Origin: Deltaproteobacteria bacterium CG11_big_fil_rev_8_21_14_0_20_47_16
GTDB taxonomy: Bacteria > UBA10199 > GCA-002796325 > 1-14-0-20-47-16
DNA length: 64,000 nucleotides
Assembly (NCBI GenBank): GCA_002796325.1
Contig: PCXA01000013.1
Coordinates: forward strand, 1-64,000
Reading direction: 5' to 3'
Position 1 is the first letter of the stretch; each line of letters begins with the position of its first letter. The position numbers were made by a program, and so were the translations under genes. Shown in pieces: positions 30,496-36,253 of the stretch. The notes beneath the pieces are model-generated. The model did not search any database. It was not told the DNA's origin and was given only the letters and a program-made list of their open reading frames with translations.

Positions 30496-31854
30496 ATGAA
30501 ATGGATTAAAGGCACCATCACCTTACTACTTTGCTTAAGCTGTCTACCATTAATGGCAGAAGATACTGCAACACCGCAGGGATCGACTGACACAGGTCTT
30601 GTGGGTGGCCGTATTTTTATCCAGCTTGATCAACCGGTAGATCAGAAATTCCCCATTGCGATTCCTGATTTGGTCAAGGCAGAGGGCTTTTCTGATCATG
30701 ACAAACTTTCCAAAAAGCTTCCCGAAATTATTCGCAACGATTTGGATCTATCCAGCTATTTCAAAATTGTCTCCAAACGCTTGTATCCCCACAAGAATGA
30801 AAACATGACCACTGAGACCATCGATTTTGCCAAATGGCGTGAAATTGGTGCAAATGCACTGATTAAGGGCATTGTCTACAAAGATGGTGGACGCGTTACT
30901 GTACAACTCAAATTGTTTAATGCTCAAAATGGCGAAATGCAGTTGGGTAAAGAATATACTGCCGATCGTAAAGATATACGAACCATCGCACACCGCTTTT
31001 CCGACGATGTATTGTTTGCAGTGACTGGTCTGCGCGGCGTGTTTAACACCAAACTTGCCTACACATCACAGGTCAAACGCAAGGGCGGAAAATCCATCTA
31101 TGTAATGGATATGGATGGTTTTAATAATCAACGTGTCACCAAGGATTCATCCATGAATATTGGTGCGTCGTGGTCACCCGATGGCAAGCAGTTGGCATAT
31201 TCCTCTTACGTGAATGGTTTCCCAGATATCTATACGGTTAATTTGTCGAACGGACATGTGAGACAACTCACCGATAATCGCAGCACCAACATCACACCCG
31301 CATGGTCACCTGATGGCGATATCATCATGTATAGCTCAGCCAAAAATCGCGACTCTGATTTATTTATTATCAACCCCCGCACAGGCGCTGAACGTGTATT
31401 TTCAGCCGCCTTCGGCATTGACCTGGGGGCCCGCTTCTCACCCGATGGCAGTGAAGTTGTTTATGCATCTGAGCGCGGTGGACACCTCAACATCTTTAAA
31501 CAAAGTTTACATGGAGGCATGCCAAAGAAGCTGACTTTTCACGGCTATCAAAACGACTCTCCTGATTGGTCGCCCGATAGCACAAAGATTGTATTCCATG
31601 GTCGTTCTGGTGGTACCTATGACATCTTCACAATGAATTCAGATGGTACGAACGTGCAACGTCTCACGGTCGGTAACGGCAGCAATGAACATCCACGTTG
31701 GTCACCTGATAGTCGATACATTGTGTTTAGTTCCACACGCGATGGCACATCGGCGATCTACATCATGCGCTTTGATGGTGCCAATCCCGTACGCATCTCC
31801 AAAGGCAATGGTGAATTGCCGTCATGGGGACCGTGGGATAAACGCGAAGATTAA
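30496..31854 (+). CDS. tolB: Periplasmic translocation protein TolB
   Basis: A 452-residue secreted protein (signal peptide ending LPLMAE): an N-terminal domain to about residue 180, then a six-bladed beta-propeller with repeated SPDG motifs (WSPDGKQLAYSS, WSPDGDIIMYSS, FSPDGSEVVYAS, WSPDSTKIVFHG, WSPDSRYIVFSS). It links Pal and the Tol inner complex. Normally pal follows; here the next 547 bp are the nested-repeat element and no pal is present beside it. Confidence 0.96.
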   Translation: MKWIKGTITLLLCLSCLPLMAEDTATPQGSTDTGLVGGRIFIQLDQPVDQKFPIAIPDLVKAEGFSDHDKLSKKLPEIIRNDLDLSSYFKIVSKRLYPHKNENMTTETIDFAKWREIGANALIKGIVYKDGGRVTVQLKLFNAQNGEMQLGKEYTADRKDIRTIAHRFSDDVLFAVTGLRGVFNTKLAYTSQVKRKGGKSIYVMDMDGFNNQRVTKDSSMNIGASWSPDGKQLAYSSYVNGFPDIYTVNLSNGHVRQLTDNRSTNITPAWSPDGDIIMYSSAKNRDSDLFIINPRTGAERVFSAAFGIDLGARFSPDGSEVVYASERGGHLNIFKQSLHGGMPKKLTFHGYQNDSPDWSPDSTKIVFHGRSGGTYDIFTMNSDGTNVQRLTVGNGSNEHPRWSPDSRYIVFSSTRDGTSAIYIMRFDGANPVRISKGNGELPSWGPWDKRED

Positions 31855-31872
31855 TTGACCACCCCACAACAT

Positions 31873-32419
31873 AATGTCGCTTATACGGCGATATTCTAAG
31901 GGAACGGCATGCTGCTACCCTCGTCAACAAGGCTCAATAGGCGTATGGCGCAGGAGCTCCGTCATGACTTGACAAAAAGGCCTTGGCTACAAAACGGCGG
32001 TAGCGATCCTTCCTTTGTCGGCTGCTACCGCCGGTAGCCAATGGCCTTTTTGCCTTCGTCATACGACTACGCTCCTAAGCGCGCCTTGGGGGAACGCCTA
32101 CCGAACCTTGTTGCCTCGCGCAGCATGCCGTTCCAACTTTTCACACTGTGGCCGCCGTATGAGTGAAGGATACCTATGCGAACTTGACGATGGCGTCTCG
32201 CGGAGGAGGGACTCTCGGAACCGTGCGCATCTATGGATATTTGCAGCGCACGGCGAGAGTGAGACGCGGTTTTTCGCCGTAACGAAAAACCGACGTCGTG
32301 CCCGACGAGCGAGGCGGCGAGGCAAATTCGCGTATGACCTGAATAAATCCACCGGCGCCCGAAGGGACCACATCGGCGAAGTCAGGCGGCTAATGAGAAA
32401 AATTCGTATAAGCGACATT
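31873..32419. ncRNA. 547-bp element of nested inverted repeats (structured RNA or fold-back element)
   Basis: Perfect 15-bp inverted ends (31873-31887 and 32405-32419) enclose two arms. Arm A (31901-32134) is nearly one long hairpin with successive exact helices of 15, 8, 7, 5, 6, 10, 8 and 10 bp. It is closed by GGAACGGCATGCTGC and capped by a 19-nt loop near 32005-32023. Arm B (32151-32390) is closed by GCCGCC/GGCGGC. It holds a 7+7+8-bp hairpin (32193-32267), a 9-bp hairpin GGTTTTTCG/CGAAAAACC (32268-32291) and a smaller CGTCG/CGACG hairpin. Open frames inside are by-products of the symmetry. No terminator fixes the strand and no target-site duplication is evident. A structured RNA is my preferred reading; a fold-back or MITE-like element is the alternative. 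Confidence 0.7.
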
Positions 32420-32442
32420 CTGGTATTGGCGATATGACCCAG

Positions 32443-32865
32443 TTATTTAACTGTGATCGTAATCTTTTCGGATTGAACAGATGGACTGAAAGTCATGTGA
32501 CCTTGATCACCCATGACCAATTGCAAGGTATGTTCACCTGGTGACAAATCGATCGTCGCTTGGGTTTGACCACCACCGTAGTGAATGTGATTTTTATCTG
32601 CTGGGATAATCGTGCCAACCTTAGGCGACTTCTTAACATCAATCAATAAATGAAAATGACCGGTATTATCATGAACCACACCGGCAGGTGCAACTCCCAT
32701 ACCACTCAAACCAAAGAGCACTGTTACAGGGTTGGTAACAGTCTCGCCATTTTTGGGGCTAATAATATACGCCTTGGCGCCTACAGGTGCTTTTTGAACG
32801 GCAAACGTCAGTGGTGATACAGCAACGGCACAACAGATAACAAATGCAGCAGCTATCTTCTTCAT
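32443..32865 (-). CDS. DUF4399 family periplasmic protein
   Basis: A 140-residue exported protein (signal peptide to about residue 22). The His-rich family signature is visible in NTGHFHLLIDV, the IPADKNHIHYGGGQTQ segment and LSPGEHTLQLVMGDQGH, matching DUF4399. The His pattern suggests metal binding, but the role is unknown. The ATG at 32865 has AAGGGGG upstream; the longer frame is less likely. It is last in the minus-strand run that begins near 40.3 kb. Confidence 0.85.
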   Translation of the reverse strand: MKKIAAAFVICCAVAVSPLTFAVQKAPVGAKAYIISPKNGETVTNPVTVLFGLSGMGVAPAGVVHDNTGHFHLLIDVKKSPKVGTIIPADKNHIHYGGGQTQATIDLSPGEHTLQLVMGDQGHMTFSPSVQSEKITITVK

Positions 32866-35845: not shown

Positions 35846-36253
35846 TCATCGTAAAATGAATTCCACACGCCTGTTTTTCTGCAGAGAATTACGGCTTACA
35901 CCGGAATCCACAGGCCGGTTCTCCCCAAAACTAACCACCATAATGACGCGCTCTGGCAAAATGCCCTTCGTAATCATATAGGACTTGATCTCACGGGCCC
36001 TCCTGTCCCCCAGCTCCATGTTATATTCAGATTTCCCGGTTTTATCACAGTGACCCTCCAGAATAACGACCGCCTGGGGATGAGATTTTAACCAGGCCAC
36101 ATCTTCATCCAGGTGATCTAGCTCCTGCGCCAACACTTGGGTGCTATCGCTTTCAAAGTGGATGGCTGGATATGTAATGTTAGCTAACGCGGCCATACTC
36201 GCCATCGGTGCCAGTAAAATCGCTGCAGTAATGAATGAGAGGCGTTTCATCAT
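35846..36253 (-). CDS. OmpA/Pal-like peptidoglycan-binding protein
   Basis: A 135-residue exported protein made almost only of an OmpA C-terminal domain: the FESDSTQVL start, ILEGHCDKTGKSEYNMELGDRRAREIKSYM (cut here for length; the GHxDxxGxxxYNxxLxxRRA pattern is complete) and the final NRRVEF. It is Pal-sized but has Ala where a lipobox Cys would be, so it should be soluble in the periplasm. The start overlaps the upstream stop (ATGA). Confidence 0.85.
   Translation of the reverse strand: MMKRLSFITAAILLAPMASMAALANITYPAIHFESDSTQVLAQELDHLDEDVAWLKSHPQAVVILEGHCDKTGKSEYNMELGDRRAREIKSYMITKGILPERVIMVVSFGENRPVDSGVSRNSLQKNRRVEFILR

Follow-up and report, generated by a model that had tools for sequence, protein, structure and literature searches.

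The 547-bp element that follows tolB in the genome of Deltaproteobacteria bacterium CG11_big_fil_rev_8_21_14_0_20_47_16 belongs to a family of scattered hairpin repeats that carry no genes; among the genomes searched, this family is confined to the phylum-level lineage of its host. The copy described here lies in a window of 64,000 nucleotides (contig PCXA01000013.1, positions 1 to 64,000). In our best reading, which we hold at a probability of roughly 0.6, the repeat is a new, lineage-restricted, non-autonomous and putatively mobile DNA hairpin whose arms are kept complementary at the DNA level. Its logic would best be described as REPIN-like, except that the core is the conserved part and the outer arms vary. 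Among the papers listed from the open-licence part of PubMed Central, none dealt with this hairpin family.

The inverted-repeat element and its strong fold are real. The perfect 15-bp inverted ends of the original prediction (31873-31887 and 32405-32419) were borne out, and a second perfect 15-bp inverted pair (31901-31915 and 32120-32134) bounds arm 1. The region 31860-32430 has a folding energy of -260.9 kcal/mol, against -194.7 +/- 6.1 kcal/mol in 100 dinucleotide shuffles (z -10.8), none of which folded as low. The extent of pairing had been overstated: 70% of the 547 bases, rather than almost every base, are paired in the minimum-energy fold, and arm 1 (31901-32134) holds 84 pairs in that fold rather than about 115 paired positions per strand. 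As first described, no direct flanking duplication is visible by eye at the 15-bp border of the element. Sequence common to sister copies extends about 15-18 bp past both ends; the element starts 18 bp past the tolB stop codon, and those 18 bp are mostly common to sister copies. The features of the region, with their basis, are these:

30496..31854, plus strand: tolB, the upstream neighbour, outside the element (window frames)
31855..31872, no strand: outer flank TTGACCACCCCACAACAT, mostly common to sister copies, starting straight after the tolB stop codon (by eye)
31870..31887, minus strand: dif-like end CGTATAA-GCGACA-TTATG (pattern comparison with sister subfamilies)
31873..31887, plus strand: left terminal inverted repeat AATGTCGCTTATACG (own-genome pattern count)
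31873..32419, no strand: the reported element of 547 bp, with perfect 15-bp inverted repeats at its two ends (ends and fold)
31901..32134, no strand: arm 1, a long hairpin of 84 pairs (minimum-energy fold)
31947..32085, minus strand: conserved 139-bp core hairpin M1, whose purine-rich strand, used for model R2, is the minus one (covariance models)
32135..32404, no strand: arm 2, with several hairpins, for example 32210-32218 with 32246-32260, and 32267-32292 (fold)
32405..32419, minus strand: right terminal inverted repeat (inverted pair with the left end)
32405..32422, plus strand: dif-like end CGTATAA-GCGACA-TTCTG, with one mismatch (pattern comparison)
32420..32434, no strand: outer flank CTGGTATTGGCGATA, mostly common to sister copies (by eye)

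A phage or plasmid origin of the element was rejected: the 547 bp gave no blastn match to phages or plasmids at E up to 0.01, and two element patterns had no exact match in viral contigs.

Downstream of the element lie genes for a DUF4399 protein, a protein kinase and a matrixin-like protease on the opposite strand. The original prediction held that the element sits where pal normally follows tolB. It does lie directly after tolB, but the remark on pal is misleading. In L029, the closest TolB relative found (56% identical), two small frames come after tolB, and beyond them lie relatives of the window's kinase (38% identical) and metalloprotease (49%), with no pal by eye and no match to R2, the model of the core described below. 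Since no pal is seen in this relative either, and R2 has no match there, the comparison suggests, from one relative only, that the absence of pal after tolB would be older than the element; the L029 region has diverged too far for a precise empty site to be recognised. MAGs labelled Deltaproteobacteria are the source of the two closest TolB relatives found, a label that we take to correspond here to the GTDB phylum UBA10199. The element had also been proposed to be a regulatory RNA of the tol operon, processed from the tol transcript and standing in place of pal. Its position directly after the tolB stop codon would suit such an RNA, but the core lies in many other gaps across the lineage, in mixed orientations, its pairs include few G-U compared with RNase P, and L029 has neither pal nor an R2 match after tolB. 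We find this proposal hardly credible, and a tol RNA unique to this locus was rejected because copies occur elsewhere in this and other genomes.

Two further observations concern this neighbourhood. An OmpA-domain protein is encoded a few genes away (window 35849-36253, minus strand); it shows no lipobox cysteine by eye and may or may not serve as Pal. In L029, the two small frames in the gap after tolB (L029:7309-8048) resemble, by eye, a nucleotidyltransferase/HEPN toxin-antitoxin pair; going by that resemblance, the gap after tolB takes up insertions in more than one genome.

The repeat is abundant in its own genome (1.95 Mb, 20 contigs). As had been proposed, the 547 bp were compared with the genome by blastn, which gave 32 matches including the window's own, and related sequence occurs at 19 stretches besides the window's own, some of them with other ends. 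Four complete copies with the same ends, of 547, 444, 238 and 259 bp, are mosaics of the same modules, three sister subfamilies carry different ends around related insides, and pieces of arm 2 turn up in other copies. The left end AATGTCGCTTATACG is found within two mismatches at 14 places, two of them the element's own ends, against 2 for a reversed control pattern. No target duplication is seen by eye at the four complete same-end copies or at the three sister-subfamily copies; a 2-bp TA duplication is possible. Eight contig ends (C2, C4, C5, C8, C9, C14, C15 and C16) lie inside or within 40 bp of element matches; the repeat thus seems to interrupt the assembly, and its true copy number may be higher. 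The same comparison with relatives found a match in one of 40 genomes, the organism's own; other genomes were reached by covariance models only.

Several copies are rearranged. The element at L026:1940-2220 (own genome, G000, contig C8) is chimeric, with an arm-2-type module abutting the right half of an M1 core. When L023 is set against L024 and L025, all in G000, the sister elements look by eye as though a whole M1 hairpin was lost between TGGCGC direct repeats, a pattern like slipped-strand deletion at a hairpin. In the GCGACA subfamily the elements have outer repeats, TAGCCCGTGTC, that end in CTA. The idea that TAGCCCGTGTC is an independent element was rejected, as a search with up to three mismatches found it at four places, all beside element ends.

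To reach more distant copies we used two models of the core. Alignment A2, the inner part of arm 1 in eight copies, is the basis of covariance model R1, which at E up to 1 gave 11 matches at 10 places in the own genome; matches to R1 occur in 11 of the 46 phylum genomes, the own one included. Alignment A3 comprises 42 R1 matches, among them the eight A2 copies and some partial or chimeric ones. Model R2 was built from 30 copies on the opposite, purine-rich strand, and its 139-bp core has matches in at least 16 of 385 genomes, all 16 being among the 46 of the window's phylum; the survey scored eight candidates per genome and may have missed weak positives, both within the phylum and beyond it. 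Scoring 150 candidates in each of the 16 positives gave 169 R2 matches: 57 in G009, 25 in G014, 17 in G015, 15 in G029, 10 in G032, 9 in the own genome, 7 in G011, 6 in G027, 5 each in G019 and G020, 4 in G001 and one or two in each of five others. The remaining 30 phylum genomes had no R2 match. Pairs of oppositely oriented cores whose starts lie 228-266 bp from each other are found in G009, G014, G019 and the own genome, showing that several elements are two-armed, like the window's.

M1 is an imperfect hairpin of about 140 bp in which the apical loop, the internal loops and the base are conserved. The stems between the loops and the outer arms vary freely in sequence, and their pairing is almost perfectly Watson-Crick. 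The internal loops are purine-rich on one strand only and G.A-rich on that strand. The base is conserved on both sides, which are partly complementary and, by eye, are not copies of one short repeat.

Cores lie preferentially between genes. In G009, none of 47 cores falls inside a frame of at least 150 aa, against 378 of 940 random stretches; in A3 the figures are 6 of 42 against 568 of 840. Insertion followed by selection against harm would give this placement. Relative to the R1 strand, the genes upstream and downstream of the A3 cores run ++ in 14 cases, +- in 9, -+ in 7 and -- in 7 (37 of 42 classed, some frames being cut at the core border). With the purine strand as reference, the directions are ++ 5, -- 11, +- 14 and -+ 6 in A3 (36 of 42 with both genes), and ++ 8, -- 16, +- 10 and -+ 0 in G009 (34 of 47). 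Divergent gaps are thus under-represented (0 of 34 in G009, 6 of 36 in A3), and among co-directional gaps of both sets one strand is mildly favoured (27 -- against 13 ++). Orientation as a sign of a function in 3' UTRs was rejected.

Within M1, the two sides of a pair tend to change together. Across the 42 copies of A3, 89.4% of cells are paired and 28 of 35 pairs have changes on both sides. Doubly changed cells number 267, against 85.7 in shuffles, with none of 500 shuffles as high; fitting A3 to the model structure favours the pairing score, and the contrast with the shuffles is still large. The covariation collapses when partners are slid by one to three columns. Isolated mismatches inside helices, counted on the purine strand in 37 of the 42 A3 rows (five partial or rearranged rows left out) and in all 47 rows of alignment A5, comprise 44 G.T and 25 A.C beside 4937 Watson-Crick pairs, an excess of G.T with p 0.03. 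Over every cell of the main helix of A3 (helix 4), read on the R1 strand, we count 7 G.T, 10 A.C and 627 Watson-Crick pairs. Once internal loops are included, the 37 A3 copies show 42 G.T and 105 A.C on the R1 strand, which is 105 G.T and 42 A.C on the purine strand. For comparison, the RNase P encoded in this window shows 8 G-U, 1 A.C and 89 Watson-Crick pairs; it is a single RNA control, counted on the Rfam structure by a rule that differs from that of the isolated-mismatch count.

Comparison of G009 copies indicates how pairs change with divergence. Between copies less than 3% apart there are 0 compensated changes, 1 single change via G-U and 1 other single change. The corresponding counts are 21, 8 and 8 at 3-6%, 111, 7 and 11 at 6-10%, 886, 40 and 47 at 10-20%, and 5279, 130 and 426 beyond 20%, over 31 of 37 pairs and with sequence pairs that are non-independent. 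With 21 compensated against 16 single changes at 3-6%, and 0 against 2 below 3%, instantaneous copying between arms is not proven. Hairpin-primed template switching has been described as maintaining the pairing of stems (PMC8794818). Such switching would explain a rapid restoring of pairs, and strong selection would too. Because covariation is strong, G.T is nearly as rare as A.C, and compensated changes far exceed single ones beyond 6% divergence, these patterns suggest that the pairing of M1 is kept at the DNA level, though an RNA would likewise be in keeping with loops that are purine-rich on one strand.

The alternative would be an RNA, with M1 a multi-copy structured non-coding RNA on the purine strand and the DNA arms its long stem. 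Strong covariation in A3, the conserved apical loop, the G.A-rich internal loops on one strand only and the excess of G.T over A.C on the purine strand with either count agree with it, as does the more stable fold of that strand (-273 against -257 kcal/mol). Yet G-U pairs, which would be expected to be frequent if selection on an RNA maintained the pairing, make up only about 0.9% of pairs when isolated mismatches are counted and about 1-2% of the main helix; RNase P, the differently counted single control, has 8 in 98. Nor was there an Rfam match for 31600-32700 at E up to 1, or a sigma-70-like promoter in 31700-32600, the latter a weak test. Copy number also ranges from 1 to 57 among the positives, and nearly two-thirds of the phylum genomes (30 of 46) have no match. 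We consider an RNA of this kind unlikely. The G.A-rich internal loops would fit either an RNA or recognition of one DNA strand. Since these conserved loops are purine-rich on one strand only, the family is also compatible with a third suggestion of the original prediction, that the element is a putative substrate of a strand-specific nuclease or recombinase.

The arms and the core are partly uncoupled in G009. Within an element the arms match: for 40 of 47 matches (the seven with altered or partial bases dropped), they agree in 31-42 of 33-42 aligned bases. A left arm compared with the right arm of another copy agrees in a median of 10 bases, with a 95th percentile of 34, the tail coming from copies of one subfamily. 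In 115 copy pairs the cores are at least 88% alike. The arms of 50 of these pairs are also similar, at 80% or more, and those of another 13 are less than 50% alike; 8 of these 13 involve copy L133 and 3 involve L162. In L133 and L137, for example, the cores are 98% alike and the arms unrelated, each set being well paired. In a bolder scheme, which would amount to a novel type of mobile DNA, only the folded core would be inherited, recognised and moved as single-stranded DNA, and the long inverted arms would be formed or re-formed at every locus by snap-back copying of one flank, leaving them locus-specific but almost fully complementary. The uncoupling would also follow from gene conversion among cores at separate loci, and the arms need not then be made anew; we regard the bolder scheme as rather improbable. 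As a separate observation, the right flank of many G009 copies among L124-L161 is followed by another shared repeat (ATTTGCAGATGAATTGAAGAATGAAA..GGAAGATT..), which may be a REP-like family of its own, either travelling with the hairpin or targeted by it.

What might move such a repeat? The original prediction had considered a fold-back transposable element; multi-copy dispersal, inverted arms and the lack of genes agree with that description, but no target duplication is seen by eye and no enzyme is linked to the repeat. Bacterial MITEs and fold-back elements likewise have inverted ends, carry no genes and occur in many, mostly intergenic copies. An ordinary MITE, the short non-autonomous relic of a DDE transposon recognised via its terminal inverted repeats, would share these traits, and the CTA at the end of TAGCCCGTGTC would fit a transposon with TA targets. 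In MITEs, however, it is the ends that the enzyme needs, whereas here the terminal inverted repeats are conserved within a subfamily and differ between subfamilies and genomes, and the internal M1 is kept across part of the phylum; no target duplication is seen by eye at the candidate copies. We judge an ordinary MITE highly unlikely.

The ends in the own genome suggest another possibility, that they are XerC/XerD sites and that the element is moved or inverted by the chromosomal Xer recombinases, as in Xer-dependent elements or dif modules. Several subfamilies of the own genome have ends of the form CGYATAA-N6-TTATG, in which the 6-bp centre varies. This pattern has 14 exact matches in the genome, 13 at element ends and one at a near-palindromic dif candidate with which the ends share twelve defined positions (CGYATAA and TTATG); with one mismatch allowed there are 44 matches, against 19 for a reversed control. 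The genome also has two Phage_integrase genes, with frames of 304 and 316 aa, which we take as XerC and XerD, and the lack of visible target duplications agrees. But the 13 sites are not independent, their sequences being interrelated, and inverted Xer sites would yield inversion rather than integration. Ends in G009 (AAGTCTTTTC / GAAAAGACGTG), G011 and G029 are not dif-like by eye, so Xer cannot be general for the family. Unlike dif modules, moreover, the repeat has dif-like ends as an inverted pair and around no cargo, and they were noticed in the own genome only. The dif candidate itself, ATGTCGCATAA-TATATA-TTATGTAACAT (G000:C15:87354-87371; L036:555-572), is unconfirmed by its position and lies inside a mechanical 67-aa frame; it is not shown to be intergenic. 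Movement by Xer is, in our estimation, quite unlikely.

Integron attC sites are recombined as folded single strands, and M1 resembles them as an imperfect hairpin with conserved unpaired features, free stem sequence and strand asymmetry. It differs in that an informal look noticed no attC motifs and that the own genome has only the two Phage_integrase genes. Spread by a reverse transcriptase was rejected: RVT_1 is found in 15 of the 46 phylum genomes, but in only 6 of the 16 positives, and has no match in the own genome, G009, G014, G015, G029, G032 or G011.

On the precedent of REPINs, a Y1 enzyme acting in trans is the most plausible candidate mover and the one that we rank first. REPINs consist of REP sequences in pairs, and their movement is attributed to RAYT/Y1 transposases (PMC3116915). 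The family resembles them as intergenic, gene-free hairpins in many copies, with conserved parts and a variable part that carries compensatory changes, and with a RAYT-like gene in the own genome. It differs in size, the core measuring about 140 bp and the whole element as much as 547 bp, and in layout: conservation here lies in the core and variation in the outer arms, whereas REPINs have conserved outer REPs and a variable spacer. Nor does any hairpin adjoin the Y1 genes examined. Y1_Tnp has a single match in the own genome (C1:479384-479716), in a RAYT-like 209-aa ORF (L098:1621-2250), with no R2 match in the 4.1-kb stretch around it. Adjacency of hairpins to RAYT genes was rejected, as 22 of 24 Y1_Tnp loci (12 genomes, 25 stretches) had no R2 match at E up to 1. 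At the other two a copy lies about 2 and about 5 kb away, on stretches picked for a known copy. These loci include both Y1 matches of G009, the copy-richest genome, one of them a fragment with stops. Y1_Tnp is present in 14 of the 16 R2-positive genomes, the exceptions being G042 and G043 (83% and 80% complete), which had no match, and also in 24 of the 30 phylum genomes without an R2 match, so its presence is not diagnostic.

For a mobile DNA hairpin kept paired at the DNA level, we propose the following course. One strand of M1, single-stranded for example at a replication fork, would fold, and the folded core would be the structure recognised by an enzyme encoded elsewhere in the genome; the RAYT-like Y1 transposase of the own genome would be the most plausible mover, on precedent only. 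A new copy would then be placed in another gap between genes. The arms would be kept complementary by copying of one arm onto the other through hairpin template switching during replication, and such copying could let the arms drift fast and still match.

Compensatory changes are normally read as a sign of functional RNA. Here a large natural family combines very strong compensatory change with a scarcity of G-U pairs, and pairing at the DNA level is suggested instead. Its copies provide material on which hairpin template switching can be tested. Should the core prove to be the substrate of a recombinase or transposase, the repeat would represent a further route by which gene-free DNA is scattered through genomes, in a little-studied lineage.
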